From IMG/VR virus record IMGVR_UViG_3300037086_000360, positions 124,001-188,000 of that record: 64,000 nt of DNA, one strand, 5' to 3'. Shown here one piece after another: positions 1,038 through 63,210 of the stretch (the stretch's first letter is position 1; each line of letters starts with the position of its first letter). Below the pieces are notes generated by a model. The model saw nothing but the letters and a program-made list of their open reading frames with translations, was not told where the DNA came from and did not search any database. The position numbers were made by a program, and so were the translations under genes. The stretch is from a virus.

Positions 1038-1044
1038 GAACAAT

Positions 1045-1445: not shown

Positions 1446-1455
1446 GAGAAAAGAA

Positions 1456-1865: not shown

Positions 1866-1874
1866 GAGTGAAAA

Positions 1875-2693
1875 ATGAAAAAGTATCTCGATCTCTGCCA
1901 ACACATTTTGGATAATGGTGTTGACAGACCAGACAGGACTGGAACTGGGACGAGAGGCGTCTTCGGCCATCAAATCCGCTTTAATCTGCAAGAAGGATTT
2001 CCTCTTCTTACCACAAAAAAACTAAACACGAAAGCAATCATAGAGGAGCTGCTTTGGTTTCTTCGTGGTGAGAGCAACATCAAGTCTTTGAATGATGTTG
2101 GAGTCCATATTTGGGATGAATGGGCCGATGAAAAGGGAAATCTTGGACCAGTATATGGCACACAGTGGAGAAGATGGGAACATTGGGTTGCTGAACCACA
2201 AGACCCGCCACACGTAGAGATCATCGACCAGATTGCCAATATCATCAATAGCATCAGACACAATCCAAACTCTAGACGACATATAGTGACTGCATGGAAT
2301 CCTGGAGAAATCGAAAAGATGGCTCTCCCACCCTGTCATTGTCTCTTCCAGTTTTTTGTAGCAAATGGGACTCTCTCTTGTCAACTCTATCAGCGTTCAG
2401 CCGATACCTTTTTAGGATTACCCTGGAATATTGCTTCTTATTCTCTTTTAACAATGATGATTGCACAAGTTTGTAATCTGAAACCGGCAGAGTTTATTCA
2501 TACACTTGGTGACACGCATATTTATAACAATCATTTTGATCAAGTGAAGCTTCAATTGACAAGAACTCCAAGAGTTTTGCCAAAGATGATTATTAATCCC
2601 GATATCAAAAACATTGATGATTTCAAATTTGAAGATTTCAAACTGGAAGGATATGATCCATATCCAGCAATTACAGCCACTATTTCAGTATGA
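1875..2693 (+). CDS. thyA: Thymidylate synthase
   Basis: This enzyme methylates dUMP to dTMP with methylene-tetrahydrofolate. The 272 residues match the usual ThyA length (about 264). Visible family features are the N-terminal [17 protein letters not shown], the catalytic Cys154 in [20 protein letters not shown], and the dUMP-binding [12 protein letters not shown]. An AGGAG site precedes the start. It forms a dTMP pathway with the dihydrofolate reductase 1.1 kb downstream, and its last codons overlap the start of a GIY-YIG endonuclease, an arrangement reminiscent of the T4 td gene, although td carries an intron and this gene is intact. Confidence 0.97.
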
Positions 2694-3508
2694 AAGAAAA
2701 GATTTGTGGCTTATACAAGATAATTTGCTCCTCAAACAACAAGTTTTATCTAGGCAGTTCTGTTAACATAAAATTACGCTGGTATTATCATTTGAAATCT
2801 TTGAGAGCCAACAAACATCATTGCATCCATCTTCAAAGAGCTTACAATTTGTATGGAGAACCAAATTTTAGACTAGAAATCTTTAAAGTTTGCGAAAATA
2901 TTTTGGAAGAAGAACAGAGATTCTTTGATGAACACTTTGATAAAGAAATCATGTTCAATTTGAGTAGAGCGGCGACTGGTGGAGATTTGATGTATAATCA
3001 TCCTAATAAAAAAGAGATAATAGAGAGAATGACGGCCACCATCCATAAAAATATGAAGGCTTTAGGAGAAGAAGGAAGAAAAAAGATATATGGACAAGTG
3101 GGGGCTAAAAATGGAATGTATGGCAAACATCAATCTAGAGAGGCTAAGGAAATAATCAGATTAGCTAATCTAGGACACCATCACAATCTTGGAATTAAAC
3201 AATCAGAAGAACATAGAAGAAAAACATCTGAATTTGCTAAAACAAGAGTTGGAGATAAAAATTCATTTTATGGTAGGCACCACACTAAAGAAACAAAAGC
3301 AATAATAGGAAAAAAGAACGCTGGCAAGACTCCAGCCAACATCAAATATTTCAAAATTGAAGGAAAGCCGTATAGGGGACTAGGAGAAGTGAATAGATCT
3401 CTCAATATCCCGTATACCACCGTTTTATGGAGAGTGAGATCTAAAAATTTTCCAAGTTATGAAGAAATCACAAAAGAACAATATGAATTGCTTAGAGGGA
3501 GTTTATGA
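2690..3508 (+). CDS. GIY-YIG homing endonuclease, free-standing
   Basis: The N-terminal GIY-YIG nuclease domain is visible as CGLYKII...[13 protein letters not shown] (residues about 5-32), followed by a conserved glutamate region near 75. The C-terminal half carries NUMOD3-like DNA-binding repeats ([18 protein letters not shown]). It shares an ATGA overlap with thyA. Such genes spread by cutting the cognate site in thyA of other phages. It is more A-rich than its neighbours, in keeping with mobile origin. Confidence 0.93.
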
Positions 3509-3792
3509 TCAAGAGAAATAAGCAGAAGGACTTGAAGAAACTCGCTATCGCTTTCTTTGAAAACTTAGAGATAGACGAGTGTGAGTTTGGTGGAATAGGT
3601 GTAAACTGCAAGAGACCTTTTGGAAATTCTTATGTCGAGGGCGACATCCTTGAGATCATTGGATGGGAGCCCGAGGGAGATGACGGAGAAGATTCATGCT
3701 TCTCATCAGAACAAAAGAGATATGCCCGTGATCTCTATCTTAGTGAATTGATCCCCTATCTCCAGACTATAGGCAGGAAGATGGCCAAATGA
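3505..3792 (+). CDS. Hypothetical protein, 95 aa
   Basis: An acidic soluble protein sitting between the GIY-YIG gene and DHFR and overlapping both by 4 nt, so probably translationally coupled. The sequence has no motif I recognise. Confidence 0.7.
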   Translation: MIKRNKQKDLKKLAIAFFENLEIDECEFGGIGVNCKRPFGNSYVEGDILEIIGWEPEGDDGEDSCFSSEQKRYARDLYLSELIPYLQTIGRKMAK

Positions 3793-4301
3793 TCTCGTTG
3801 ATAGCTGCGGTTGCCAACAATATGATTATTGGCAAAGACGGCAGACTTCCATGGCGGCTGCCTGCGGATATGAAATACTTCAAGAAAATCACTATGGGGC
3901 ACCAGGTGATCATGGGGAGAAAGACCTTCCAATCGCTTGGAAAGCCTCTAGCTGGCAGATCAAACATCATCCTCACACATGATTCTGGATTCTCCAACAA
4001 AGAGTGCATCACAATCTACGCAAAGGATGATTCCTATGCTCTTGCTGAAGTGATGATGCTAGTTGGTTCAGAGGAGACTTTCGTGATTGGTGGAGCACAG
4101 ATCTACAATCTCTTCATAGACCATGCAGACAAGCTCTACATCACTCATGTTGATGCAGATTTTGAAGGGGACGTTGTTTTTCCAAGAATCGATCATGACA
4201 GATGGGAGCTTCTCAGCATAGAATCACACGAGAAAGACAATGAAAATCCATACCCTTATCAGTTCGCCATATACGGCAACAAAGTGATGACAATCTCATG
4301 A
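3789..4301 (+). CDS. folA: Dihydrofolate reductase
   Basis: This enzyme reduces dihydrofolate, the by-product of thymidylate synthase, with NADPH. Family motifs are MISLIAAVANNMIIG, the active-site segment GRLPWRLPADMKYFK, the NADPH-binding MGRKTFQSLGKPLAGR and the later EETFVIGGAQIY. At 170 residues it has the normal length. Together with thyA it completes a phage dTMP cycle. Confidence 0.97.
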   Translation: MISLIAAVANNMIIGKDGRLPWRLPADMKYFKKITMGHQVIMGRKTFQSLGKPLAGRSNIILTHDSGFSNKECITIYAKDDSYALAEVMMLVGSEETFVIGGAQIYNLFIDHADKLYITHVDADFEGDVVFPRIDHDRWELLSIESHEKDNENPYPYQFAIYGNKVMTIS

Positions 4302-4450
4302 AGCATACTTGTGATATATGTAAGCACTCCTATGAAAAGGATGATGCTTCTCTCTATTGCAATGAGAAGAGGAAGAAGACGAACTACTATGACACCTGCG
4401 AAAAATGGGAACGAAGAGTTAATAATAAAAAAAGCCAAAAAACTCCTTGA
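4298..4450 (+). CDS. Small cysteine-cluster protein
   Basis: A 50-codon frame whose ATG overlaps the DHFR stop. It carries four cysteines (CDICKHS, LYCNEK, DTCEKW), a layout shared with the small proteins at 13.9-14.9 kb, where C-x2-C is followed by a spaced C and then C-x-KW. It may bind zinc. It overlaps the next gene by about 60 nt, which lowers confidence. Confidence 0.55.
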   Translation: MKHTCDICKHSYEKDDASLYCNEKRKKTNYYDTCEKWERRVNNKKSQKTP

Positions 4451-4745
4451 GGGCAGATGTTTCCACGAAATCAAGATCCAGGAACCAGATAATGAAGGAT
4501 ACTATGGATCAGCTGAATGTATCTACTGTGATGGTCTTGGATGGAACAGCATCTTCACTTGGTATTGTCCAGACAGCCCAGATCATGCTTGTCACTATCA
4601 TTCTGACAGCGATGGTAAGAGACGATATACAACAGACATAAATGGAGAAAGAATCTATCTCTCCAAAAAACATACAGATGAAAATGCAAGATGGGAGACT
4701 GATGACCAGTGTCTTTTCTGTGGTCTGCCCAATGAGCGCAAATAA
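4389..4745 (+). CDS. Hypothetical zinc-binding-like protein
   Basis: The internal ATG 4389 is chosen because it gives an N-terminus with the recurrent motif KKAKKLLEGR. The protein has two C-x2-C pairs (AECIYCDGLG and DQCLFCGLP) and several histidines, suggesting a metal-binding fold. No defined family. Confidence 0.62.
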   Translation: MTPAKNGNEELIIKKAKKLLEGRCFHEIKIQEPDNEGYYGSAECIYCDGLGWNSIFTWYCPDSPDHACHYHSDSDGKRRYTTDINGERIYLSKKHTDENARWETDDQCLFCGLPNERK

Positions 4746-5031
4746 GCTAGAACCTGGATACTATCACTACACCCCCGACAATGCGTACGCCATTATTCAA
4801 TGGCGAGAACGTTTAGCTGATTCTGAGTCTGATTATAGAATCATCTACTATCATCCAGATTATCCAATAGGGGATCAATACTTTTTTCACGAGCTTGAAG
4901 AAAAAGATCTAGAAGCTACGTTTTTAGCAAGTTTCATTCCAATTACTGATCCATCAGTTCTAGCCAAGTTGTTCCTTATTGGATTTCAGTTTCCACTCAT
5001 CGCCCGTGCGGGCAAATGGACCTTCCCCTAA
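4732..5031 (+). CDS. Paralog of the 15-17 kb small protein family
   Basis: The start at ATG 4732 overlaps the previous stop. The N-terminal LEPGYYHYTPDNAYAI and the C-terminal DPSVLAKLFLIGF resemble the proteins at 15232, 15531, 16008 and 17025 (E/K-x-G-x-x-L near the start, then an L-F-x-x-G-x-F-like end). Function unknown. Confidence 0.62.
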   Translation: MSANKLEPGYYHYTPDNAYAIIQWRERLADSESDYRIIYYHPDYPIGDQYFFHELEEKDLEATFLASFIPITDPSVLAKLFLIGFQFPLIARAGKWTFP

Positions 5032-5037
5032 GATTAC

Positions 5038-5045
5038 GCATATTT
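5038..5045 (+). promoter_or_regulatory. GCATATTT motif upstream of 5063
   Basis: An exact copy of the recurrent intergenic octamer GCATATTT. It lies 18 nt before ATG 5063, in the short gap after the previous gene. Confidence 0.4.
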
Positions 5046-5062
5046 CATAGTAGAGGAAAGAG

Positions 5063-5320
5063 ATGACACTCCTAGAAGAAGTAGCTTTTCTTATTGAGGC
5101 TCAAAAGAAGTTTCTCCAAGGCCCACATAAGGAGAAAGACTTCATCAAACAAGTGATGAAGTTTGCCAAAGATGAGACCATTTCTGTAGAAGCCTTCGGA
5201 ATAGCACTCAGACTTTTTCCAACCAATGCTCAAATAGCTAAGCAGGCTAAAGATCTGTTGACTCATTTGGGAGAATCTGATTATGATCCATGTGGATCTA
5301 GTTACAAGAGTTCATGTTGA
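5063..5320 (+). CDS. Hypothetical helical protein, 85 aa
   Basis: A soluble, mostly helical protein with the C-terminal segment AQIAKQAKDLLTHL, close to the AK-x-LL motif seen elsewhere. AGAGGAAAG precedes the ATG. Its stop overlaps the start of the radical SAM gene. Confidence 0.68.
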   Translation: MTLLEEVAFLIEAQKKFLQGPHKEKDFIKQVMKFAKDETISVEAFGIALRLFPTNAQIAKQAKDLLTHLGESDYDPCGSSYKSSC

Positions 5321-6192
5321 TGAAAACCATCAAGATTTTTGACACAAAAGTCCCAGTCAAAGAATGGTCGTGTTGTATGAATGGGGATGAGCGCGAAGAG
5401 ATCGGTCCCTATTTCAATCTTTATATTCGTGTGACCGACTTTTGTCAAGCGTCTTGTAAGTTTTGTGTCTATCATTCTACTGACCAAAAACGCTTTGACG
5501 CGAAGAAGTTCAATGAAATCCTCAAATACCTCAAGGCTCATAAAGTAAAAATCAACAAGGCGGCACTTACAGGTGGAGAACCAGCTTTCAATCCTGTTCA
5601 TCAGAAGGCAATTGTTGATCTGATAAGATTGAGTTATCCAAGAGTTCATACTACAATCAACACCAATGGAATCAATCTAAAGCAGACCATAAACGCTGGT
5701 GTGCAATGTGTCTCTATAAGCCGTCATCACTTTGATGACGACGCTAATTTTGAGATTTTTGGCACTCACAAAGTTTCAACTACAGAGCAGTTGAGAAAAC
5801 TCGACAAGAAAGACATTGTCCATTTGAGATGCAATTTGATCAGGGGACAGATTGATTCGCAGAAGAAAATGTTTGATTTCATAGATTGGGGTGCTGAACT
5901 TGGATTCTCAGACTTTGGATTCATTTCTCTCATGACCGTGAATCCGTATTGCAAATCCAATTTTGTCGATCATTCTATTTGCCAGTTTGAAGACGCTCCT
6001 AATACAAAGTTGGCCTACTATCAGAGTGACACCGTTGGCTGCAACTGCAAGAACTACTTGCATTTCACAGAAAGAGGGGAGCTAGTGAAGGTTTATTCAC
6101 GAGTAAATGGAGCATATACAGAATGTGAAAGCACATTGGTATATGATGTTGATACTTTGAAGGTTGGTTTTTCTGGACCAATTCTTGCATAG
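5314..6192 (+). CDS. Radical SAM protein
   Basis: The cluster-binding motif is clear: C44-x3-C48-x2-C51 in DFCQASCKFC, followed by LTGGEPAFNP (the GGE motif that contacts SAM). The C-terminal third has further cysteines (VGCNCKNYL, TECES) that could hold a second cluster. At 292 residues it resembles small radical SAM enzymes, but the substrate cannot be read from the sequence, and no queuosine-type partner genes are present. It lies just before two tRNA genes. Confidence 0.85.
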   Translation: MLMKTIKIFDTKVPVKEWSCCMNGDEREEIGPYFNLYIRVTDFCQASCKFCVYHSTDQKRFDAKKFNEILKYLKAHKVKINKAALTGGEPAFNPVHQKAIVDLIRLSYPRVHTTINTNGINLKQTINAGVQCVSISRHHFDDDANFEIFGTHKVSTTEQLRKLDKKDIVHLRCNLIRGQIDSQKKMFDFIDWGAELGFSDFGFISLMTVNPYCKSNFVDHSICQFEDAPNTKLAYYQSDTVGCNCKNYLHFTERGELVKVYSRVNGAYTECESTLVYDVDTLKVGFSGPILA

Positions 6193-10046: not shown

Positions 10047-10087
10047 AATGGATAATACGACTGATCAACGATCATCAACGCAATCAT

Positions 10088-10173
10088 GGGAGATTGCGCG
10101 AACGGTTAAGCGGTCAGTCTTATAAACTGAAGCCTGGACTAATCCAGAAGTGGTTCAACTCCACTATCTCCTA
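10088..10173 (+). tRNA. Class II tRNA with TAT anticodon
   Basis: Acceptor GGGAGAT/ATCTCCT, anticodon stem TCAGT/ACTGA with loop CTTATAA, a long variable arm closed by CTGGA/TCCAG, and T loop TTCAACT. A long variable arm belongs to Leu, Ser or Tyr tRNAs, yet the loop reads TAT (Ile). The acceptor amino acid is therefore uncertain. Confidence 0.82.
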
Positions 10174-10177
10174 AATC

Positions 10178-19342: not shown

Positions 19343-19403
19343 GTTGCTAGGGCTAGGTGTCCGCCCGACGGGGAAACGCTGAGTTCGAATCTCAGTAGCG
19401 ACA
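19343..19403 (+). ncRNA. tRNA-like domain lacking a D arm
   Basis: Acceptor strands GTTGCTA and TAGCGAC pair over 7 positions (one G-U), followed by a perfect T arm CTGAG-TTCGAAT-CTCAG and discriminator A. Only 29 nt separate the 5' acceptor strand from the T arm, too few for both a D arm and an anticodon arm. It may be a decayed or minimal tRNA, or the 3' domain of a larger RNA. Confidence 0.5.
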
Positions 19404-19418
19404 GTTCATTTTTCTTAG

Positions 19419-19440
19419 AGGCGTGGCTCAACGGCCAATT
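19419..19440 (+). pseudogene. 5' fragment of tRNA-Trp
   Basis: The first 7 bases AGGCGTG and the following D-arm-like bases match the 5' end of the intact tRNA-Trp at 20321, then the sequence runs straight into the endonuclease start. This is what remains when a mobile gene inserts into a tRNA gene and brings a new 5' end for the target. Confidence 0.6.
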
Positions 19441-20322
19441 ATGATTGAAAGTGAAAAAGAATACACATGCTCCAAATGTGGGGCAAAACTAAAATCAATT
19501 GTCAACTTAGCAAATCATCATGCTAAAGAACATCCAAAACCACCGATCTATGAATTGATCTTGGTCAAGAAGTCATGTGAAAAATGTGGGAAGGAGATTG
19601 AAGCTAAAAGATATTTGAAAAGAGGAATACCACAGCTAGAAACTGAAAGAAGATTTTGTGATTTTTGTTCCCACGGACATTCTCATACAAAAGAGTGGAA
19701 TGAAAAGATTAGCGTGTCTTTGAAAGAAAGAGATATTGTTCCGAAAGCAAAAATACAATTTGACATTGAGACCTTAATCACAAGGATCTCGACATCAAAA
19801 CCCTTCATTGTCACATGTATAACTTGTGGTAAATTGTTTCTATCGAGTTCAATATCGGGAAAATGTTGTAGTCAGAAGTGTATCGGAGGATCTCATAAAG
19901 GAATAAAACACAAAGCTGGAAGCAAGGCTGGTGGATTAAGAAATGGAGGTGGGAAATCGAAACAGATTTTCCATCATTCTAAAATAGCAGGAGAGATGAA
20001 ACTAAATACGGAAGAGATCAAGTTAGCAACCATCTTAGATAAGCTTGAATTGAAATGGGAAAGAAACTGGAAAGGTTTTCCCTATATCACAAAAGATGGG
20101 AAATATAGAAAATATTACCCTGATTTTCATCTTATTGAAAATGATTGGTATCTTGAATACAAGGGATGGATTACAGAAGAAATGATTCATAAGATGGAAG
20201 ATGCAAAGAAAAGAAATGATTTGAAGCTATTGATTATTTATGGAAATGATCGTCGATATAAAGATCTTGGTCTGAGCATAGTTGAATTAGAAGTAGACAA
20301 CGCTTTGTTGTCTCTCACATAG
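19441..20322 (+). CDS. Zinc-finger PD-(D/E)XK homing endonuclease in tRNA-Trp
   Basis: The N-terminus has a C2H2 finger (YTCSKCGAKL...HHAKEH) and several C-x2-C pairs. The C-terminal part has YYPDFHLIENDWYLEYKGW, a good PD-(D/E)XK core. ATG 19441 is chosen; the frame open to 19423 covers the tRNA fragment. Its stop TAG overlaps the first bases of the intact tRNA-Trp. Position between two tRNA-Trp 5' ends marks it as a tRNA-targeting mobile gene. Confidence 0.84.
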   Translation: MIESEKEYTCSKCGAKLKSIVNLANHHAKEHPKPPIYELILVKKSCEKCGKEIEAKRYLKRGIPQLETERRFCDFCSHGHSHTKEWNEKISVSLKERDIVPKAKIQFDIETLITRISTSKPFIVTCITCGKLFLSSSISGKCCSQKCIGGSHKGIKHKAGSKAGGLRNGGGKSKQIFHHSKIAGEMKLNTEEIKLATILDKLELKWERNWKGFPYITKDGKYRKYYPDFHLIENDWYLEYKGWITEEMIHKMEDAKKRNDLKLLIIYGNDRRYKDLGLSIVELEVDNALLSLT

Positions 20323-20399
20323 GCGTGTGGCCCAGCGGCGACGGCAACAGACTCCAAATCTGTCATAACACATCGAGGGTTCGAGTCCTTCCACGCCTG
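20321..20399 (+). tRNA. tRNA-Trp (CCA)
   Basis: Acceptor AGGCGTG/CACGCCT is perfect, anticodon stem ACAGA/TCTGT with loop CTCCAAA, T stem GAGGG/CCTTC, discriminator G. The variable region of about 11 nt is longer than usual for tRNA-Trp. Confidence 0.88.
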
Positions 20400-20465
20400 A
20401 AACTGTGACCGAGCGTTCGAATCGCTCCGCCTCTGAATCTCTTGTCTTTCTTAAATAGGTGGGAT

Positions 20466-26506: not shown

Positions 26507-26795
26507 AAACAAATATTCCCTATGACTTTGAACGTTCTATAAAAGTAATGAATCTTTTATAGAGAATCATACGAAACCAGATTGCGCTTCGGTATGCGGA
26601 TCAATTTGCTACCAATTGCAGTTGACGTCACTCCAAAAAAGAATAGTACCGATCTCAAAATCACCCCTACTCCTCTGTTTTATTTAGAATCTAGCCTCAA
26701 ACAAAACTCTCAACATTCTCGACAAACCCAAAAGATAAATTATAGTAGGTGTTCTTTTTGGTTTATTTAAGACCTAGGAGCACGAGGTGAAAAAT
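26507..26795. other. Non-coding gap before the signalling block
   Basis: About 290 nt with no convincing gene. It holds a perfect 9-bp inverted repeat CTATAAAAG/CTTTTATAG at 26537-26562 and an AT-rich end with AAATTATAGTAGG, a possible -10 region for the following operon. The unusual length of the gap fits a recombination junction. Confidence 0.45.
26537..26562. repeat. Perfect 9-bp inverted repeat
   Basis: CTATAAAAG and CTTTTATAG separated by 8 nt. It is not followed by a T-tract, so it is more likely an operator-like or weak terminator hairpin than a classical terminator. Confidence 0.45.
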
Positions 26796-27878
26796 ATGCA
26801 AAAAATTAAAATAACTCTTATATTTGTAATATGTGTCGCAATATGCGCTCCGCTGCTTGCAGATACAATAAAGATCGGTGCAATTCTTTCGCTCACGGGC
26901 AATTCTGCTGGAATGGGCCAAAGCATGCGTGATGGTATCCTACTTGCTGTAGATGAGGTTAATAAGCGTGGTGGAGTGAATGGAAATAAAATTGAAATGA
27001 TCATTGAAGATAGCAAAAGTGATCCGAAAACTGCTGTCGATATGTTCAACAAAATAGAGCTGTCTCAACCTCCACTCTTCTATCTGACATTTCTTAGTAG
27101 TGTTGGCGTTGCTCTCGGTCCTCTTGTAGATGAAAAGAAAGTCGTGCTTGTGGCTCTCTCATCAAATGCTCCAGCCCTTACGCGCAATCGTCAATTTGTT
27201 TATCAATATTGGCCAACAGTACAGGCTGATGTCCCTCCAATATTGTTAACTCTTCAGGATTTGAAAATAAAAAAGCTGGGCATTATCTATTCAAACGAAG
27301 TATATGGAATTGAAGAGCAGCAGTCTGTTGCCAAGGCGTTCAAAGATGTTGGCGGTTCGGTCGTTACTCAATCGATTGAATTGATGGCTACAGACTTTAA
27401 TCAGCAAATTGAAGCTCTTAAGAACACTGACGCAATATTCATTTCATCGCTGGGCACTAGCCTGACAAATGTCATACATCAACTTCGAGAGATAAAATAC
27501 GCTGGGCACATCTTAATACCGGGCGCCGGAGCCAATCCTACATTTTTCATCTTACCTGAGATGCAAGGCATCTATCTTTCAGCACCAATTATATATAACC
27601 CAGAATATCTCTACGCCCGAGACATCGCAGTCAAATTTACTGCAAGATACCAAAAACCCCTTAATCATTGGGCGGCAATCGGTTATGATTTCATCAAATT
27701 AATTTCTGGACTGTTTGAAGATCATTCAATGACTCGACAGAGTATACGAGACATTTTAGCAAAAGGGTTTGAATATTCGGGCGTGTTTGGACAGGTGAGA
27801 CTCAAATTAGGAGAACATGTCATTGCTTTTCCAATGTACGCAGCACAAATTCTAAACAATACGCTTAATTTTCGCTAA
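26796..27878 (+). CDS. ABC-type branched-chain amino-acid-like binding protein
   Basis: After a signal peptide (MQKIKITLIFVICVAICAPLLA) come the family landmarks IKIGAILSLTGNSAGMGQSMRDG, NKIEMIIEDSKSDP and later ALSSNAPALTR, typical of LivJ/LivK-type periplasmic proteins (Peripla_BP_6). ATG 26796 is 6-8 nt after ACGAGGTG. No transporter genes follow; instead a sensor kinase does, so it may serve as a ligand sensor. It reads like a bacterial gene in a phage-like setting. Confidence 0.87.
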   Translation: MQKIKITLIFVICVAICAPLLADTIKIGAILSLTGNSAGMGQSMRDGILLAVDEVNKRGGVNGNKIEMIIEDSKSDPKTAVDMFNKIELSQPPLFYLTFLSSVGVALGPLVDEKKVVLVALSSNAPALTRNRQFVYQYWPTVQADVPPILLTLQDLKIKKLGIIYSNEVYGIEEQQSVAKAFKDVGGSVVTQSIELMATDFNQQIEALKNTDAIFISSLGTSLTNVIHQLREIKYAGHILIPGAGANPTFFILPEMQGIYLSAPIIYNPEYLYARDIAVKFTARYQKPLNHWAAIGYDFIKLISGLFEDHSMTRQSIRDILAKGFEYSGVFGQVRLKLGEHVIAFPMYAAQILNNTLNFR

Positions 27879-27896
27879 CTTTAGAGATAACTTGTT

Positions 27897-29798
27897 ATGA
27901 AAAAATTGGGCACGAAACTTATAATCAGTTTTCTCATCTTTCTTTTGATGATTGTTGCTGTCACATTCTATTCAACCCTTACAAGTCAAAAGTCATTACA
28001 AGATTCAATCGGTCAGAACTTGATTTTCGTAGCTAAAGATATGCTTGTAAATATGAATATGGCAATCTATGATTGGATAGATCGCATTGAACAACGAGCC
28101 GCAACTGGATCTGTAATTGCGAGTGTAAGTGCATCAAATAAAGAATTTGAGGCATCGGGGGTCCCTTTGTCATATCTGAACCAGATCGAAAAAAATTGGA
28201 CTGTTGACGAAAATGGAAAAATGTCTTTTTCTCTCCAGAGGGTGATTGAAAGTGATCTTTCGAGAGAATTGAAAAATCAATTTGCGATTCATTTTGAAAA
28301 GAAACTGGGTTTTCAAATAGTTGATACATTTGTTGTCACCAATAAATACGGAGCAACTGTTGCTGAACGCTTTGCGTATGAAAAATATAGATTTGATAAT
28401 AATCTCTTGTGGCAGAAAGCAAAAGAATCAGGATCTTCTGTCGGAGAAGTTGAAATGAGTCAACGGACTGGACAGGAGGTTGTTCCATTTGCAGTACCAA
28501 TTATTGATATTCAAAATAAGTTTTTAGGAACAATAATGGTAGATGTGACCACTGACTCAATTATCCGCAACGCGATCATCACTTATAAGAAATATGAGAA
28601 CACACAAATTAGATTGATAGCGCTCGACGGAAAACTCATCTATTCAACTAAACCATACCAATTCATGGAAGACATTTCGACTAAGCCATATTTTCAAAAT
28701 ATCAAGGGAGAGAGTGGCTCATTTATATCTGTCGACGGTGGCAGACAAACTCTTTTTTCATACGCTAGATCTCAAAAATATCTCACACTTGCTGGCATGC
28801 CGTGGATATTGATAGTTGGAAATGATGTGAACGAAGTGTTAATACCGAGTTTTAATTTACGAAACAATATCATTTTTATGTCGGGGGCCCTATTTGTCCT
28901 TGGTCTGCTCTTTGCATTCGTCTTATCACGATCTATTACTAAACCAATTGTAGCATTGCAGAGAGCAGCCACAGAAGTAGCGAAAGGAAATCTAACATAC
29001 AAAATTGAATTCAAGGGCAAAGATGAAATCAGCATGCTTGCGCAATCATTTAATCAAATGGCGGCCTCAATTAGCAATCGTATAGAAGAGAAAGAGCGAT
29101 CAGCTCAACAACTTCTTACTGTCAATAAAGAAATCAAAGCTTTTAGCTATTCTATATCTCATGATCTTCGTTCACCTCTGAGAGCTATTGCTGGATACAC
29201 TCGCATTTTACTCGAAGATTATTCAACTCAACTAGATGCTGAAGGAAAACGAATTTGCACTGTGATTAGCGATGGTGCTAAAAACATGGGAAAACTCATT
29301 GACGACATTTTAGCTTTCTCACGTCTTGGTCAAGCTGAAATGCAACGCTCATCTATAGATATGACCGCTTTAGCTAAAGCGGTATTTCTTGAAATAACGA
29401 CTCCTGAAAGTCGAGAAAGAATTGATTTCAATGTCGAGCCTTTGCATGTAATAATGGGAGATCCAGTTCTCATTCGTCAGGTTTGGACCAATCTCTTAAC
29501 AAATGCTATCAAGTTTTCATCTAAGAAAGAGCGAGCTATCATTAAGGTGAGCGACCAGACTGTGAAAAACGAAGTGATATTCTCAATTCACGACAATGGT
29601 GCGGGTTTCAACATGGCTTATATTGATAAACTCTTTGGAGTGTTTCAAAGATTGCATAGCACGACTGAATTTGAAGGGACAGGAGTTGGTTTAGCCATTG
29701 TCCAACGCATTGTCCAGCGCCATGGCGGCAGAATTTGGGCCGAAGGTGAAATAGATAAAGGCGCGACTTTTAGCTTTACAATAGAAAAAGGAGAATAG
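27897..29798 (+). CDS. Membrane sensor histidine kinase (Cache-HAMP-HisKA)
   Basis: Order of domains: TM helix (residues 8-26), an extracytoplasmic sensor of about 270 residues (dCache-like, ending MPWILIVGND), a second TM (about 315-340), HAMP (SRSITKPIVALQRAATEVAKGN), the H box FSYSISHDLRSPLRAIAGYTR, and an HATPase domain with DNGAGFNMAYIDKLFGVF and GTGVGLAIVQRIVQRHGG. All catalytic boxes look intact. Probably senses the upstream binding protein or its ligand and phosphorylates one of the two downstream receivers. Confidence 0.94.
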   Translation: MKKLGTKLIISFLIFLLMIVAVTFYSTLTSQKSLQDSIGQNLIFVAKDMLVNMNMAIYDWIDRIEQRAATGSVIASVSASNKEFEASGVPLSYLNQIEKNWTVDENGKMSFSLQRVIESDLSRELKNQFAIHFEKKLGFQIVDTFVVTNKYGATVAERFAYEKYRFDNNLLWQKAKESGSSVGEVEMSQRTGQEVVPFAVPIIDIQNKFLGTIMVDVTTDSIIRNAIITYKKYENTQIRLIALDGKLIYSTKPYQFMEDISTKPYFQNIKGESGSFISVDGGRQTLFSYARSQKYLTLAGMPWILIVGNDVNEVLIPSFNLRNNIIFMSGALFVLGLLFAFVLSRSITKPIVALQRAATEVAKGNLTYKIEFKGKDEISMLAQSFNQMAASISNRIEEKERSAQQLLTVNKEIKAFSYSISHDLRSPLRAIAGYTRILLEDYSTQLDAEGKRICTVISDGAKNMGKLIDDILAFSRLGQAEMQRSSIDMTALAKAVFLEITTPESRERIDFNVEPLHVIMGDPVLIRQVWTNLLTNAIKFSSKKERAIIKVSDQTVKNEVIFSIHDNGAGFNMAYIDKLFGVFQRLHSTTEFEGTGVGLAIVQRIVQRHGGRIWAEGEIDKGATFSFTIEKGE

Positions 29799-29800
29799 TT

Positions 29801-30247
29801 ATGGATCAGCCTACAGATGTTATCGACATTTTAATAGTTGAAGACAATCCTCAGGATGCTGAGTTGATGATTCGAGCGCTCAAGAAACGCAATTTCGCAA
29901 ATCCTCTTTTTGTAGTAGAAGATGGTGAAGCAGCACTTGATTTTATTTTCTGTAGAGGAGCGTATATAGATCGACATCCTCAACGCCCTCCAAAAGTGAT
30001 CTTTTTAGATCTCAAACTTCCTAAAGTAAGTGGCTTAGGGATATTAAAACAAGTCAAATCTAATGAGTCTCTGCGCTCAATTCCAATAGTTGTAGTAACT
30101 TCATCTAGAGAAGATCCTGATATTAAAACAGCTTATGATCTTGGTGCAAATAGCTACGTAGTGAAGCCAGTTGATTTTGATGTCTTTTTAGACTCAATGA
30201 GCACTCTGGGATTGTATTGGTTAGTAGTGAATGAACCCTCAAAATAG
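29801..30247 (+). CDS. Single-domain response regulator (Rcp1-like)
   Basis: A receiver domain alone: LIVEDNPQDAELM acidic pocket, phosphoacceptor Asp in IFLDLKLPKVSG, Thr/Ser in VVVTSSRED, and Lys in SYVVKPVDF. The extended loop after beta-3 (CRGAYIDRHPQRPPK) is typical of Rcp1-type regulators paired with phytochrome-like or hybrid kinases. It lies 2 nt after the kinase gene. Confidence 0.94.
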   Translation: MDQPTDVIDILIVEDNPQDAELMIRALKKRNFANPLFVVEDGEAALDFIFCRGAYIDRHPQRPPKVIFLDLKLPKVSGLGILKQVKSNESLRSIPIVVVTSSREDPDIKTAYDLGANSYVVKPVDFDVFLDSMSTLGLYWLVVNEPSK

Positions 30248-30258
30248 GAAGTATCGCT

Positions 30259-32187
30259 ATGTCTGATAACATACGTGTTCTGATTGTTGAAGATATTCGC
30301 ACAGATGCCGAACTTGTTGAACGTGAAGTTAAAGAAACTATTCCAAATAGCGAGTTTTTGGTAGTCGAAACACGAGAAGATTTTCTTACTGCATTGTCAG
30401 TCTTCAATCCTGACGCTGTGTTATCTGATTACAAGCTGCCAAATTTTGATGGTATGACGGCGCTACAATTGACACTCAAACACTCTCCATGCATTCCATT
30501 TATTTTAATTACAGGTTCGATGAATGAAGACATCGCAGTGAAGTGTATGAGAGCAGGCGCCTGGGATTATATAATCAAAGATCGGATTAAGCGTCTAGGA
30601 CCCGCAGTAGAAGGAGGATTGCAGCGTGCTTCTATGCTTCGAGAGCAAAAAATTGTTGAAGTAGCATTGAAGACCTCAGAACTTCAATATCGCCGTCTTT
30701 TTGAAACCGCAAAGGATGGTATTTTGATTCTTGATGCCAATACTGGAATGATTCTAGATGTGAATCCATTTTTAGTCGATCTGCTAGGATATTCATCCGA
30801 ATATTTTCTTGGAAAGAAGATATGGGAGATAGGCACTTTTAAAGATTCCATAGTCAATCAGGCTAATTTTGTAGAGTTGCAAGAAAATAAGTATGTGCGC
30901 TATGAAGACATGCCCCTGCAAACATCTCATGGCAAACTGGTCGATGTCGAGTTTGTCAGTAATACATATAATGTGGGTAATAAAAAATTGGCTCAGTGTA
31001 ACATTAGAGATATTAGTGCTCGGGTACTCTCTCTGAAAAAGAATCTGAGACTTGAAAACGAACTTCATCAATCTCAAAAAATGGAAGCTATTGGACAGTT
31101 GGCCGGTGGTGTGGCCCATGATTTCAACAATATGCTTGGAGTGATTCTTGGTCATACAGAAATGTCGATTAGTCAATTAAGTCCATCACATCCGCTCTAT
31201 GACACATTCCAAGAAATACACAAGGCAGCAAAACGTTCTGCACAATTGGTGAATAATCTCTTGGCCTTCGCGCGTAAACAACCAATCATGCCTCAAATAG
31301 CCGATGTGAATAATTCTATAGAAAATATAGAAAAAATGGTAAAACAAACAATTGGTGAAAACGTCAAACTAGAATGCCATTTCGATAAAAGTCTGTGGCC
31401 AATAAAAATAGATCCATCTCAATTTGATCAAATCATAATCAATTTGTCGGTAAACGCCCGAGACGCTATTGATGGAATCGGTAAAATAATCATTACAACA
31501 AAAAATGCTACTATGAATGATGAACTTATTGAAAGTTTTCATATAAAAGGTGATTATGTGCTCCTCGAGATAATTGATACTGGATGTGGTATGTCGAAAG
31601 AAGTTCAATCACATATTTTCGAGCCATTTTTTACTACCAAAGAAAAAGGCAAAGGGACTGGTTTGGGATTAGCTACCGTATACGGCATCGTTAAGCAGAA
31701 CAATGGATATATAAAAATAATCTCCGAAATCAATCGTGGAACCACTTTCAAAATATATTTTCCTCGATACAAAAATGGTATAAAACCGGAGCTAAAAACG
31801 ATAGAATCAATGAAAAGTGGAAGTGAGACTATTTTAATTGTAGAAGATGAACTTTCCCTCTTGAATCTCATTACAAAAATGCTCGAAAAACAAGGTTACA
31901 CTGTTGTGATAACAGATTCTCCAAAAGCAGCCATCTGTTTGGCTGAAAAGATTCATGGTAAGATTGATTTGCTTTTGACAGATGTAATAATGCCAGAGAT
32001 AAGTGGAAAAGACTTAATGAAAACTCTGTCCACGACTTATCCTAGAATCAAGAGCATATTTATGTCTGGTTATACAGAAAATATTATCAGTCAAAGTGGT
32101 TTGCTCGACAAAAATCTGAATTTCATTCAAAAGCCTTTTTCTTTAAAAGACCTTTCTATCTTAATAAGAAAAGTATTAGACGAATAG
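30259..32187 (+). CDS. Hybrid kinase: REC-PAS-HisKA-HATPase-REC
   Basis: N-terminal receiver (SDYKLPNFDG phosphosite, about residues 5-120), a PAS domain (YRRLFETAKDGILILDANTG), H box KMEAIGQLAGGVAHDFNNMLGV, ATPase boxes NARDAIDG, DTGCGMSKEVQSHIFEPFFTT and GTGLGLATVYGIVKQ, and a second receiver (LLLTDVIMPEISG). There is no membrane segment. It completes a cytosolic phosphorelay with the two previous genes. All motifs look functional. Confidence 0.93.
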   Translation: MSDNIRVLIVEDIRTDAELVEREVKETIPNSEFLVVETREDFLTALSVFNPDAVLSDYKLPNFDGMTALQLTLKHSPCIPFILITGSMNEDIAVKCMRAGAWDYIIKDRIKRLGPAVEGGLQRASMLREQKIVEVALKTSELQYRRLFETAKDGILILDANTGMILDVNPFLVDLLGYSSEYFLGKKIWEIGTFKDSIVNQANFVELQENKYVRYEDMPLQTSHGKLVDVEFVSNTYNVGNKKLAQCNIRDISARVLSLKKNLRLENELHQSQKMEAIGQLAGGVAHDFNNMLGVILGHTEMSISQLSPSHPLYDTFQEIHKAAKRSAQLVNNLLAFARKQPIMPQIADVNNSIENIEKMVKQTIGENVKLECHFDKSLWPIKIDPSQFDQIIINLSVNARDAIDGIGKIIITTKNATMNDELIESFHIKGDYVLLEIIDTGCGMSKEVQSHIFEPFFTTKEKGKGTGLGLATVYGIVKQNNGYIKIISEINRGTTFKIYFPRYKNGIKPELKTIESMKSGSETILIVEDELSLLNLITKMLEKQGYTVVITDSPKAAICLAEKIHGKIDLLLTDVIMPEISGKDLMKTLSTTYPRIKSIFMSGYTENIISQSGLLDKNLNFIQKPFSLKDLSILIRKVLDE

Positions 32188-51184: not shown

Positions 51185-51461
51185 GGCTCTGTAGCTCAGA
51201 TGGATAGAGCAACAGCCTTTGTTTTTCACGGAGCACCAGAGAGAAAACTTTCTGAGTGAATGTCTTCAAATTCGGTGGATCCCCTGAAAAGGGCAATACC
51301 GAGCCAAGCCCGAAAGGGAAGGTGTAGAGACTAGATGGAGACCACCTAAAGCATCCGCCATGGTGAAGGTATAGTCCAGCCAACAAACTCTTGGAGTGTC
51401 ACAGTAATGTGATGTTGGAGAGCTAAGCTGTGGGTCGCCCGTTCGAATCGGGCCAGAGTCA
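51185..51461 (+). tRNA. tRNA-Arg (TCT) interrupted by a group I intron
   Basis: Exons are 51185-51219 and 51423-51461. Joined, they give acceptor GGCTCTG/CAGAGTC, D stem GCTC/GAGC, anticodon stem ACAGC/GCTGT, loop CTTCTAA (anticodon TCT), T stem GCCCG/CGGGC and A73. The intron interrupts the anticodon after its first base, follows a U and ends in G, as group I introns do. Confidence 0.92.
51220..51422 (+). ncRNA. Group I intron, IC3-like, 203 nt
   Basis: The core closely resembles the Azoarcus tRNA-Ile intron: CAAATTCGGTGGAT, ATACCGAGCCAAGCC, AAGGTGTAGAGACTA and GAAGGTATAGTCC, in the same order. GACTA and TAGTC form P7, and ACC/GGT pairs form P3-P4-P6 elements. There is a P2-like hairpin CAGAGAG...CTTTCTG. 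No endonuclease frame is inside, so it is probably a small self-splicing ribozyme. Confidence 0.92.
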
Positions 51462-51473
51462 ATGTTTTCACAG

Positions 51474-51556
51474 GCGAGCGTACGACTAACTGGATAAGTT
51501 CCCAGATTTCTACTCTGGTGCCGCAAGGCTTGGGGGTTCGAGTCCCCCCGCTCGTT
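51474..51556 (+). tRNA. Class II tRNA with TCT-like anticodon
   Basis: Acceptor GCGAGCG/CGCTCGT (one G-U), anticodon stem CCAGA/TCTGG with loop TTTCTAC, variable arm TGCCGCAAGGCTT, T stem GGGGG/CCCCC. The long variable arm suggests Leu or Ser, but a seven-base loop gives TCT. CTA would need a shifted register. Identity unresolved. Confidence 0.75.
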
Positions 51557-51574
51557 TATTTATGGTAGGTCTAT

Positions 51575-54141: not shown

Positions 54142-54226
54142 TGCCTGGTTACCAGAGCGGTCGAATGGGCCGGTTTTGTAAACCGGAGGAGAAATCCCAC
54201 GCAGGTTCGAATCCTGTGCCAGGCTA
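54142..54226 (+). tRNA. Ser-like class II tRNA with TGT anticodon
   Basis: Acceptor GCCTGGT/GCCAGGC, a Ser-type D arm (CCAGAGCGGTCGAATGG), anticodon stem CCGGT/ACCGG with loop TTTGTAA, variable arm AGGAGAAATCCCAC and T stem GCAGG/CCTGT. The body looks like tRNA-Ser but the anticodon TGT is Thr. Confidence 0.85.
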
Positions 54227-60722: not shown

Positions 60723-60796
60723 CGACTCGTAGCGGGTGGTTCGGTTACATCATTAGGTAGATAACAACCGTCCATGTGATTCATGAGTCGTTTTTT
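60723..60796 (+). ncRNA. AGCGG-CATC RNA element 1 (no tRNA insert)
   Basis: P1 CGACTCGT/ATGAGTCG (60723-60730 with 60783-60790), AGCGG at 60731, P2 CGGTT/AACCG (60742-60746 with 60766-60770), ACATC, ATTC before P1', and a T6 tract after. The loop of P2 is only 19 nt. It begins 3 nt after a tRNA. Confidence 0.78.
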
Positions 60797-60806
60797 AGAA
60801 ATTTTG

Positions 60807-60891
60807 GAAGACTTGTAGCGGTTGGTCCAGTTACATCAAACTGAAAATTTGTAAAAACAACTGTTCCATAAAATCCACACGTCTTCTTTTT
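60807..60891 (+). ncRNA. AGCGG-CATC RNA element 2 (no tRNA insert)
   Basis: P1 GAAGACTTGT/ACACGTCTTC pairs at 9 of 10, AGCGG at 60817, P2 CAGTT/AACTG (60828-60832 with 60859-60863), ACATC, and ATCC before P1'; T5 follows. The short P2 loop is A-rich. Confidence 0.78.
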
Positions 60892-60912
60892 ACATTGCTT
60901 AAATCTTTTCAA

Positions 60913-61059
60913 AGGTTTGTAGCGGCGGAAAACAGTTACATCGGTTAACACAAAATCCTTCAGAGATTTCAAGTGCAAGTCCTATATGGTTCAAATCCGT
61001 AAGGCCGTCGTAAGACGAGTATTTCAACTGTTTCTGAATTTCACAGACCTTTTATTTTT
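60913..61059 (+). ncRNA. AGCGG-CATC RNA element 3 with tRNA-like insert
   Basis: P1 AGGTTTGT/ACAGACCT (60913-60920 with 61043-61050), AGCGG at 60921, P2 AACAGTT/AACTGTT (perfect 7 bp, 60931-60937 with 61026-61032), ACATC and TTTC before P1'. The insert has a T arm TATGG-TTCAAAT-CCGTA at 60985-61001 and then CGTC-GTAA-GACG, a capped acceptor-like stem. No D arm is evident, so the tRNA part seems degenerate. Confidence 0.72.
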
Positions 61060-61067
61060 GCATATTT
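61060..61067 (+). promoter_or_regulatory. GCATATTT motif after element 3
   Basis: Exact octamer directly after the T-rich end of element 3, 47 nt before ATG 61107. Confidence 0.4.
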
Positions 61068-61106
61068 CCTTTTGAAGAGCTGCACAGTGCGGATAAAGGA
61101 GATCAA

Positions 61107-61409
61107 ATGAGCGTAAAGATCGAGGGGCCGTGGGAGAGCAGTCACCTCATAGGTACAAAGCTCACCCATGAGCAGTATGCTTTTGTGATCCAGACCATTA
61201 ACAAATGGGCCACAGAGGTCCATGAAAGTGCTTCGAGTGCTGGACACGGTGAAGGTTATTTTAAGCAGCCGGTAATTACTGGAGAAACTAGAGCCATGGT
61301 TCGACAGCAGATGGTCGCCGACATTATGCACTCAGGGCTTCTTTATCGCATGATGACTGGTGACGGTCCTGTGACAGTAGAGGATCCAGTAGATAAGAAA
61401 ATAAAATAA
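61107..61409 (+). CDS. Hypothetical protein, 100 aa
   Basis: AAAGGAGATCAA precedes the ATG. A helical protein (AFVIQTINKWATEVHESAS, MVRQQMVADIMHSGLL) with no known domain. It lies between RNA elements 3 and 4. Confidence 0.68.
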   Translation: MSVKIEGPWESSHLIGTKLTHEQYAFVIQTINKWATEVHESASSAGHGEGYFKQPVITGETRAMVRQQMVADIMHSGLLYRMMTGDGPVTVEDPVDKKIK

Positions 61410-61413
61410 AGGG

Positions 61414-61560
61414 GAATGACGTAGCGGAGGAGAGAGTTTCATCGACTATTAATCGAGAGGTCGCTGGTTCGAGCCCAGCCAGAGGACGAAAGTCCGATGT
61501 AGCTCAGTTGGTAGAGCACTAAAAAAAGCTCTTTTCGTTATTCATGTTATTCTTCTTTTT
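61414..61560 (+). ncRNA. RNA element 4 carrying a permuted tRNA
   Basis: P1 GAATGACGT/ATGTTATTC (9 bp, two G-U; 61414-61422 with 61544-61552), AGCGG at 61423, P2 AGAG/CTCT (61433-61436 with 61529-61532), CATC, ATTC. Inside: 3' half 61443-61487 with anticodon hairpin CGA-CTATTAA-TCG, T arm GCTGG-TTCGAGC-CCAGC and CAGAGGA; then a GAAA loop; then 5' half 61493-61520 TCCGATG-TA-GCTC-AGTTGGTA-GAGC. The acceptor pairs at 5 of 7 (tandem G-A mismatches). The anticodon would be ATT. Confidence 0.78.
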
Positions 61561-61575
61561 GAAAGATTTAAATTG

Positions 61576-61677
61576 ATGTTTATAGGATCAGTTGTTAGAG
61601 TTATTATTCACGATTCAGAGGATTTCCTATTGAACGGAGTATACCAATTAACTGATTCGTTCAAAGGAGATCGATAA
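61576..61677 (+). CDS. Possible 33-codon protein upstream of RRM gene
   Basis: ATG 61576 (MFIGSVVRVIIHDSEDFLLNG) ends with TAA overlapping the RRM ATG (TAATG). The coupling supports it; the size keeps confidence low. Confidence 0.45.
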   Translation: MFIGSVVRVIIHDSEDFLLNGVYQLTDSFKGDR

Positions 61678-61961
61678 TGGCAAAGAAAATCTATGTTGGC
61701 AACATGAACTACAACACGAGTGAAGACTCTCTTAGGACACTTTTCACTCAATATGGTGAGGTAGTATCCGTCAACATCATCACAGACCGCGTTACTGGTC
61801 GTGCTAAGGGCTTCAGCTTTATAGAAATGGCAACCGAAGAAGCTGCAAAAGCAGCAATTGCTGCACTAAATGGCAAGGAAGTAGACGGCCGACAGTTGAA
61901 AGTGAATGAAGCTAATGATAAGCCACGGAACGATAGAGATGGTGGTTATAAAAGTCGTTAA
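61677..61961 (+). CDS. RRM RNA-binding protein
   Basis: A single RNA recognition motif: RNP2 KIYVGNMNY at residues 4-12, RNP1 RAKGFSFIEM at about 42-51, and a short basic tail KPRNDRDGGYKSR. It resembles the bacterial Rbp family of small RRM proteins. AAAGGAGATCG precedes it. It is encoded between RNA elements 4 and 5, so those RNAs are candidate ligands. Confidence 0.94.
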   Translation: MAKKIYVGNMNYNTSEDSLRTLFTQYGEVVSVNIITDRVTGRAKGFSFIEMATEEAAKAAIAALNGKEVDGRQLKVNEANDKPRNDRDGGYKSR

Positions 61962-61990
61962 TTATTGAAGACTTCTTACGGGTTAAAAAA

Positions 61991-62389
61991 GTGGCACCAA
62001 AGCAAGTGATAGTTGTAAGAAAAGATCTCAATATGAGAAAGGGCAAGATGGTAGCTCAAAGTTGTCATGCTTCAATGAAAGTGTTCTTCGATAGAATAAA
62101 ATTTGTAACTGATCATGATGGTAGAAAATACTACGAGATTCCATTTATCTCTTCTCAAGTAGATGAATGGATAGGCGGTCTTTTTACTAAGATTGTTGTT
62201 TCTGTTGATTCTGAGGAAGAAGTTCTTCAGCTTCAAAAGAAAGCGGATGAAGCAGGTATCATAAACGCAGTAGTGACTGATGCCGGACTCACAGAATTCC
62301 ATGGAATTCCAACCATCACTTGTATTTCAATTGGACCAGATGATCCAGAAAAAATTGACAAGATTACTGGAGAACTACCTCTTCTATGA
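61991..62389 (+). CDS. Peptidyl-tRNA hydrolase 2 (Pth2)
   Basis: KQVIVVRKDLNMRKGKMVAQSCHAS is the Pth2 signature, and VVTDAGLTEFHGIPTITCISIGP the second conserved block with the catalytic-type Asp. Pth2 is the archaeal and eukaryotic type of peptidyl-tRNA hydrolase, rare in bacteria and known in large phages. It releases peptides from stalled peptidyl-tRNAs. GTG 61991 start. Confidence 0.93.
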   Translation: MAPKQVIVVRKDLNMRKGKMVAQSCHASMKVFFDRIKFVTDHDGRKYYEIPFISSQVDEWIGGLFTKIVVSVDSEEEVLQLQKKADEAGIINAVVTDAGLTEFHGIPTITCISIGPDDPEKIDKITGELPLL

Positions 62390-62610
62390 TAGAAGAAGGG
62401 TTGGAATGGCTGTCGCAGACAGATGAAGAAATTGTCGAAGAAGCCAAACGACTTTTATGTCCGTTGCCATTTACTCATTTTAACAATGTAACCGTACTTG
62501 ATAAGAAGCACTTTCTTTTTTCTTTTGCCGACAATACATGCCAAATTGCAATTCTCGTAGGGGACATTGTTACGCTTGGACCAAGAATTCCGTTTGCTGA
62601 ACGTACATGA
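62386..62610 (+). CDS. Hypothetical protein with EEAKRLLCP
   Basis: Seventy-four residues: TDEEIVEEAKRLLCPLPFTHF and a beta-rich C-terminus (HFLFSFADNTCQIAILVGDIV). Overlaps Pth2 by 4 nt and precedes RNA element 5. Confidence 0.66.
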   Translation: MIEEGLEWLSQTDEEIVEEAKRLLCPLPFTHFNNVTVLDKKHFLFSFADNTCQIAILVGDIVTLGPRIPFAERT

Positions 62611-62630
62611 AAAAAGAAAATTAAGAAGGG

Positions 62631-62789
62631 AGATATGCAGCGGTAGATAGAGTTTCATCAACCCAAACCGGAAGTTGCCAGTTCGAATCTGGTCAAGTGA
62701 ATGCATCAATAAGTGGTTCACTTGTAGTTCAATTGGATAGAACGCCAGTCGTATTAGACTTTATTTAAAAAATTCGCATATTTTCTTTT
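62631..62789 (+). ncRNA. RNA element 5 carrying a permuted tRNA
   Basis: P1 AGATATGC/GCATATTT (62631-62638 with 62776-62783), AGCGG at 62639, P2 AGAGTTT/AGACTTT (62649-62655 with 62756-62762, two G-U), CATC, ATTC. Inside: 3' half 62660-62701 with CCC at the anticodon position, ACCGG, T arm GCCAG-TTCGAAT-CTGGT, CAAGTGA and A; a 16-nt linker; then 5' half 62718-62750 with TCACTTG, GTTC/GAAC D stem and CCAGT. The acceptor is a perfect 7 bp; the anticodon stem pairs at 4 of 5. Confidence 0.85.
62776..62783 (+). promoter_or_regulatory. GCATATTT motif forming P1' of element 5
   Basis: Exact octamer, here also the 3' strand of P1 of RNA element 5, starting 15 nt before ATG 62791. Confidence 0.4.
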
Positions 62790-62790
62790 A

Positions 62791-63027
62791 ATGGACGAAG
62801 CCCTTTGTGCTAAGAATCTAATGCTCGAAAGAGATTGTGCAAAATGTCGCATTGCGAGAGACACTTATCTCGATTTTGTCGATAATTGGAAACAAATCAA
62901 TGAAGAGCTTCAGAAGCAAGGATGCATTGGTTCATTTAAATTGAAATCAGATGGGACCGAATATGAGTTTTGGGGTCCGCAAGTTGGAGTTTGTGATCAC
63001 TACATCCCTTTCAAAGGGAAAGAATAA
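62791..63027 (+). CDS. AKNLM cysteine-cluster protein
   Basis: ALCAKNLMLERDCAKCRIARD at the N-terminus and VGVCDHYIPFKG at the C-terminus. A further member of the AKNLL-plus-C-x2-C class. Lies between RNA elements 5 and 6. Confidence 0.68.
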   Translation: MDEALCAKNLMLERDCAKCRIARDTYLDFVDNWKQINEELQKQGCIGSFKLKSDGTEYEFWGPQVGVCDHYIPFKGKE

Positions 63028-63056
63028 GTGATTTCGACATAGAATAAAGATAATAC

Positions 63057-63210
63057 AGTATGCAGCGGGGTTAGAGTTACATCAATAGGAACCGGCGCCG
63101 TAAGGCATGTTGGTTCGAGACCAACCTCACTCAGTAATGGGTGAGTGGTGAAATTGGCAGACACACTGGTAAAAGAAAAAACTCTTTCTAGAATTCGCAT
63201 ACTATTTTAT
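63057..63210 (+). ncRNA. RNA element 6 carrying a permuted tRNA-Leu
   Basis: P1 AGTATGC/GCATACT (perfect, 63057-63063 with 63197-63203), AGCGG at 63064, P2 AGAGTT/AACTCT (perfect, 63073-63078 with 63180-63185), ACATC, ATTC. Inside: 3' half 63086-63133 with TAG-GA, ACCGG, a Leu-type variable arm CGCCGTAAGGCAT, T arm GTTGG-TTCGAGA-CCAAC, CTCACTC and A; a 5-nt linker; then 5' half 63139-63170 GGGTGAG-TG-GTGAAATTGGCAGACACA-CTGGT. Acceptor 7 of 7, anticodon stem 5 of 5 (one G-U each). Confidence 0.88.

Follow-up and report, generated by a model that had tools for sequence, protein, structure and literature searches.

Group I introns have long been known from bacterial tRNA genes. Those that interrupt the anticodon loop constitute the IC3 class, which includes the Azoarcus tRNA-Ile intron, and for the group I ribozymes in general a two-step splicing reaction initiated by guanosine is well established. 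For phages, a 2014 review placed all of the introns then known in protein genes, despite the many tRNA genes that phages carry (PMC3984707), and introns go unmentioned in a 2019 survey of viral tRNA genes (PMC6409571). No paper describing a group I intron in a phage tRNA gene was found by full-text literature searches, which covered few subscription journals or preprints. Because this coverage is partial, the case described here is presented as apparently undescribed and not as the first: the ribozyme and its placement in the anticodon loop are known, while the phage setting is new.

The window analyzed is a stretch of 64,000 nucleotides corresponding to bases 124001-188000 of a 250,111-bp IMG/VR virus record, which is assigned to an uncultured giant phage. 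At positions 51185-51461 it contains a tRNA-Arg(UCU) gene that is split between U34 and C35 by a group I intron (Table 1). The unspliced gene is not called by ARAGORN in its normal mode. In intron mode, the program reports a tRNA-Arg(tct) at these positions with a 203-nt intron and the same exons as those read by hand, in agreement with the intron length and the split anticodon given in the initial annotation. When the exons are joined, they form a 74-nt tRNA in which all stems are paired, with an acceptor stem of 7 bp (one G.U), a D-stem of 4, an anticodon stem of 5 and a T-stem of 5, so that the proposed phage-borne tRNA-Arg(UCU) is recovered as a full cloverleaf with the anticodon UCU. The search with a group I model that had been suggested as a check gave a match of RF00028 to 51215-51396, which covers model positions 1-253 and scores 58.8 bits against a gathering threshold of 50 bits (E 2.4e-12, whole window, all 4227 families). 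RF00028 has no other match in the whole 250,111-bp record. The absence of an endonuclease was also correctly noted, as the 203 nt are without an ORF and thus lack the endonuclease gene of a homing intron.

Table 1. Window coordinates of the split tRNA-Arg(UCU) gene, its intron elements and the adjacent tRNA gene.
Feature	Position	Strand	Sequence or basis
5' exon of tRNA-Arg(UCU)	51185..51219	+	Ends ...ACAGC-CUU, through U34; ARAGORN intron mode, spliced cloverleaf
Group I intron, 203 nt, no notable ORF	51220..51422	+	RF00028, 58.8 bits; model R1, 171 bits (training member of R1)
P1	51217..51233	+	CUU/UGU (51217-51222; splice site at the slash) with ACGGAG (51228-51233), loop UUUUC; sequence and free precursor fold
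P2 hairpin, 7 bp	51237..51254	+	Covarying helix in 15-intron alignment; loop AAAA
P3	51262-51267 / 51337-51342	+	6 of 6 pairs covary in 15-intron alignment
P4	51272-51277 / 51297-51302	+	Covariation, free fold; capped by P5
P5	51282-51285 / 51290-51293	+	GAAA loop; covariation, free fold
P6	51303-51305 / 51321-51323	+	Covariation
P6a	51309-51311 / 51316-51318	+	GAAA loop; covariation, free fold
P7, guanosine-binding helix	51329-51333 / 51372-51376	+	GACUA / UAGUC; AGACUA and AUAGUCC columns do not vary among the 15 introns
P8	51343-51346 / 51362-51365	+	CACC / GGUG; covariation, free fold
P9 region	51380..51418	+	CCAACA/UGUUGG (51380-51385/51413-51418) and small inner hairpin; sequence, free fold
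P9-region 5-bp hairpin with GUAA (GNRA) loop L9	loop 51404-51407	+	Read from sequence
Omega-G, final intron nucleotide	51422	+	G203, invariant in 15-intron alignment
3' exon of tRNA-Arg(UCU)	51423..51461	+	Starts CUAA-GCUGU, C35 onward; CCA not encoded; ARAGORN, spliced cloverleaf
Second UCU-anticodon tRNA, long variable arm, next gene downstream	51473..51557	+	ARAGORN

The fold of the intron is supported by both energetics and comparison. The free minimum-energy structure of the 277-nt precursor, at -95 kcal/mol (z = -3.2 relative to dinucleotide shuffles), contains the cloverleaf together with P1, P2, P3, P4, P5, P6a, P8 and P9. In an alignment of this intron with 14 relatives, all of them tRNA introns, compensatory changes are present in 29 of the 45 predicted pairs. 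Within P1, U34 (51219) lies opposite G51231, forming the U.G wobble that defines the 5' splice sites of group I introns. The subgroup is most likely IC3, the tRNA type, judged from the kinship of its sequence with the anticodon-loop tRNA introns, which are its close kin; Rfam possesses a single group I model. Of the tetraloops in L2 and L9 that make contacts with receptors in IC3 introns, L9 is GUAA, while L2 is not of the GNRA type.

By far the likeliest mode of action, as read from this anatomy, is the two-step reaction initiated by guanosine. The precursor would adopt the tRNA fold, with the ribozyme extruded as a loop from the anticodon. P1 would present the U34.G wobble, and an exogenous guanosine bound in P7 would attack after U34. 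The freed 3'-OH of U34 would then attack after omega-G (51422), so that the exons are ligated at U34 and C35 and the intron is released. The product, once charged, would decode AGA. In 21 long ORFs of the window, AGA accounts for 138 of 290 Arg codons and is the commonest of them, so a UCU tRNA would be useful to the phage. Without an endonuclease of its own, the intron may now be inherited passively, or be moved by an endonuclease acting in trans or by reverse splicing. Its arrival would, for the same reason, have needed a trans endonuclease, recombination or reverse splicing.

The intron departs from its relatives at 16 of the 91 alignment columns that are conserved in at least 13 of the other 14 introns. 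The majority fall in P9, at the periphery, and there the intron forms complementary helices of its own with a GNRA loop; another two, in P5, together create a new C-G pair. The loop L2 is AAAA, which is not a GNRA sequence, compared with GAAA in 14 of 14 relatives, and the receptor-like sequence of P8 is altered (CCUAAA...CAUGG); the two are not taken for a coupled change. Position 51278 in J4/5 should contact the wobble pair at the splice site and has G in place of A. On the sequence, either the L2 or the J4/5 change could weaken splicing activity. Together with the divergence of P9 and the presence of a second UCU tRNA next door, they could be taken as signs of decay, in which case the intron would splice poorly or not at all and the gene would be a pseudogene whose work is done by the neighboring UCU tRNA or a host tRNA. 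However, the core helices, P7, the splice-site wobble and omega-G have all been kept, the exons form a perfect cloverleaf, and even the divergent P9 region still pairs and ends in a GNRA loop, which makes decay improbable. The intron is better regarded as apparently functional with an altered periphery. Overall, it is very likely that the phage tRNA-Arg(UCU) anticodon is interrupted by a complete and probably active group I intron of the tRNA type, most likely IC3, and splicing is predicted.

The second UCU tRNA, the only other one in the record, belongs to an unusual set. A long variable arm is usually confined to Ser, Leu and Tyr tRNAs. Here, tRNAs with long variable arms have Arg, Ile, Thr and Lys anticodons and are found at 51473-51557, 10087-10174 and 54143-54225 of the window and at 119358, 120527, 123888 and 43351 of the record. 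They often adjoin a normal copy with the same anticodon, and those for Lys share their acceptor stem with the normal Lys tRNAs. In addition, two adjacent tRNAs with the anticodon CUA, of the amber suppressor type, are located outside the window at 193217-193367 of the record; ARAGORN calls them Pyl.

Other tRNA-like elements occur in the window. The initial annotation counted a second tRNA interrupted at the anticodon loop, which could not be confirmed: the only other split tRNA-like halves found, at 19418 and 20403, have their break in the D-loop. These 5' and 3' halves (19418-20440) have matching 7-bp acceptor strands, lie about 1 kb apart and are separated by an endonuclease-like ORF (19423-20322) and a tRNA-Trp, and no intron model matches the region. 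Nearby, at 19344-19404, a short tRNA-like element consists of an acceptor stem and a T-arm with no room for D or anticodon arms, and ARAGORN makes no call there. At 60730-63200, a motif resembling AGCGG...GAGTT(A/T)CATC is repeated at least six times and is reminiscent of bacterial Y RNAs, with two sub-threshold YrlA matches of 33 and 31 bits; three of the repeats carry a tRNA-like module whose 3' half precedes its 5' half.

The assignment of the record to a phage rests on IMG/VR and on its replication genes. Matches to PHROGs include a split phage-type DnaE-like polymerase, a DnaB-like helicase, a primase, exonucleases and several homing endonucleases. A search with phrog_2 was uninformative because it matched nearly all control genomes. 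With the models tried, no match to capsid, terminase or tail genes, including tail-sheath, was obtained in the record, which may therefore lack the structural part and may be a fragment. Genes for DnaK, a periplasmic binding protein and two histidine kinases are also present, at 73154-75040 of the record and 26787-32187 of the window. A near relative, IMGVR_UViG_3300036886_000243, has a DnaK that is 85% identical, but this tRNA region is absent from it, as is any group I intron, and so it provides no ortholog of the gene, interrupted or not, for comparison. Given the missing terminase and tail-sheath matches and the presence of histidine kinases, DnaK and a periplasmic binding protein, the DNA might be imagined to be another extrachromosomal element or misassigned bacterial DNA. 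This is highly improbable for a virus record with phage-type replication genes, homing endonucleases and 64 tRNA genes in 250 kb (63 called by ARAGORN plus the split tRNA-Arg(UCU)).

The same arrangement recurs in many other viral contigs. At least 145 viral loci, representing 130 distinct genes for Leu, Arg, Asn and other tRNAs, combine an ARAGORN call of a split tRNA with an intron-model match; this count is a lower bound from limited pattern scans and does not represent a frequency. It indicates that the arrangement is maintained in phages. The exact 33-nt core of the window intron, a pattern that favors its close kin, was found at 23 loci, mostly split tRNAs, which were read by hand as Leu(UAA), Asn(GUU) and Lys(UUU), and two wider patterns found at least 120 loci and 35 loci. 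A covariance model built from 15 introns, R1, matches 150 loci, one of them a GenBank phage locus, and includes all 145 of the split-tRNA viral loci. A U at the end of the exon together with a G at the end of the intron, which this splicing mechanism requires, is seen in 120 of 149 calls. Judging from these sequences, interrupted tRNA genes seem to be common among environmental phages, where most have gone unreported. Some of the viral contigs may contain host sequence; many exceed 100 kb and carry several tRNAs.

The 108 short introns in this set range upward from 185 nt with a median of 208 nt, and 33 of them are no longer than 203 nt, so the description of the window intron as one of the smallest was overstated. 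A further 41 introns exceed 350 nt, the majority of them with an ORF of some 140-240 codons. All four such ORFs that were checked are nucleases, of the HNH type in L007, L049 and L165 and of the PD-(D/E)XK type in L092. Several introns may occur together: L166, from a contig of 280,913 bp, has three within 1.5 kb (3400-5200), and L095 has four group I introns at 1000-5900, in each case within one tRNA cluster and in different isotypes. Two other phage tRNA-Arg(UCU) genes (L064:1983-2188 and L135:168-380) have exons 87-90% like those of the window, and their introns were parsed between U33 and U34. A call of a split tRNA-Ser in a crAss-like phage (L351) was left out of the counts. Likewise not counted were the hits in HTVC120P, KM23-C739, RHph_N3_13 and Shewanella phage, which are introns, or resemble introns by the R1 model, but lie outside tRNA genes.

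Sequenced phages in GenBank provide further examples. LR756501/LR756503 (735 kb) has a tRNA-Leu(UAA) with a 205-nt intron, and LR756511 (595 kb) one with a 700-nt intron. The cultured jumbo phage Atu_ph07 of Agrobacterium (MF403008.1, L349:1252-1613) possesses an unannotated tRNA-Leu(UAA) with a 278-nt group I intron, which scores 162 bits with R1 although it was outside the training set of the model. A small predicted protein, AUZ94936.1, is annotated over the 3' half of this split tRNA, and the paper describing the phage reports 33 tRNAs and does not contain the word intron (PMC6102473). The tRNA-Arg(CCU) of Microcoleus phage My-WqHQDG, deposited as a 286-nt tRNA, has a 213-nt intron (R1, 125 bits).

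That many phages keep tRNA introns, sometimes three in a single tRNA cluster, could suggest that the introns are adaptive, either shielding the tRNA gene or its precursor from anticodon nucleases, homing endonucleases or integrases, or timing the maturation of the tRNA. Such a role is very unlikely, given that the mature tRNA has a normal anticodon and that the ORFs examined in the longer introns encode endonucleases. Moreover, mobile introns spread without benefit to their carrier.

The origin of the window intron was considered in relation to both phage and bacterial introns. A pattern scan of bacterial genomes returned at least 114 stretches in which a tRNA-Arg(UCU) has an intron between U34 and C35, from many phyla and classes, including Gammaproteobacteria, Bacilli, Bacteroidota and Omnitrophota, and ARAGORN reads most of them as an interrupted Arg(tct) gene. 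The connection to bacterial tRNA introns drawn at the outset is therefore sound, in that the bacterial gene is often interrupted at the very same phosphate. In the 185 family columns, however, the best identity of the window intron is 72% to phage tRNA-Leu(UAA) introns, 66% to bacterial introns of the tRNA-Leu(UAA) type and 57% to the bacterial tRNA-Arg(UCU) clade. In 1000 resamplings of the columns, the identity to the phage set was higher than that to the bacterial Arg set every time and higher than that to the bacterial Leu set 991 times; these values serve as support and do not amount to a resolved phylogeny. BLAST gave the same order, with 128 bits to phage Leu introns and 98 to the best bacterial Arg intron. 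A search of 793 genomes, covering the two phyla to which a Saprospiraceae and a Chromatiales genome belong, likewise had a tRNA-Leu(UAA) intron as its best match (104 bits).

Phylogenetic analyses bear on whether an already interrupted tRNA-Arg(UCU) was captured from a bacterial host. The careful tree recovers a clade of 62 mostly bacterial Arg(UCU) rows with a support of 100/97, and the structure-guided tree recovers the bacterial Arg clade with 100/100; the window intron is outside in both. Forcing it into this clade was not rejected by AU tests, which used short alignments and visibly imperfect searches, either in the careful tree (p 0.099, leaning against) or in the structure-guided tree (p 0.685, where the free search had missed a better constrained tree). 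Together with the identical insertion point in many bacterial phyla and exons up to about 89% identical to bacterial ones, the AU results leave some room for host capture. Nevertheless, the higher identity to phage Leu(UAA) introns in every resample and the exclusion from the Arg clade make this explanation unlikely for the sample of bacterial genomes covered. The initial annotation had proposed exchange of tRNA genes between phage and host; a simple exchange of tRNA-Arg is weakened by the identities of 57% and 72%. About 10 other viral tRNA-Arg introns do fall inside the bacterial Arg clade of the careful tree, so exchange between phages and bacteria probably occurred within the family, if not here.

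The closest resemblance of the window intron, which is to phage Leu(UAA) introns, suggests instead that it has passed from one tRNA isotype to another, perhaps among phages. It is proposed, with moderate confidence, that phage tRNA genes are a large, unrecognized reservoir of mobile tRNA introns that move between isotypes and phages, and that the window intron came from a phage tRNA-Leu(UAA) intron and independently reached a site also used by bacterial introns. If it is common for phages to harbor tRNA introns and pass them on, in some cases with endonucleases, phages would offer a means of transport behind the patchy occurrence of such introns in bacteria. A practical consequence is that tRNA callers in normal mode miss such phage tRNAs. 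In addition, splicing in infected cells could be tested directly with the cultured phage Atu_ph07.

Several known systems can be compared with the window intron. The bacterial tRNA-Arg(UCU) introns have the same tRNA, insertion point, core and mechanism, but they are only about 57% identical and usually longer, some reaching 600-670 nt. The bacterial introns of tRNA-Leu(UAA), tRNA-Arg(CCU) and related genes, sampled from Pseudomonadota, are likewise inserted in the anticodon loop and are similar in length (about 200-255 nt), but their identity does not exceed 66% and their setting is chromosomal. Group I introns of phage protein genes, such as those of Shewanella phage 1/4 and Rhizobium phage RHph_N3_13, belong to the same ribozyme class but lie within or next to protein-coding genes. 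The closest in sequence, at 72%, are the phage tRNA-Leu(UAA) introns of the viral contigs, LR756501, LR756511 and Atu_ph07, which share the position after U34 and, where they are without an ORF, the size class of about 195-215 nt. They differ in interrupting another tRNA, to which the internal guide sequence is adapted, in having GAAA in L2, and, in some cases, in carrying endonuclease ORFs.
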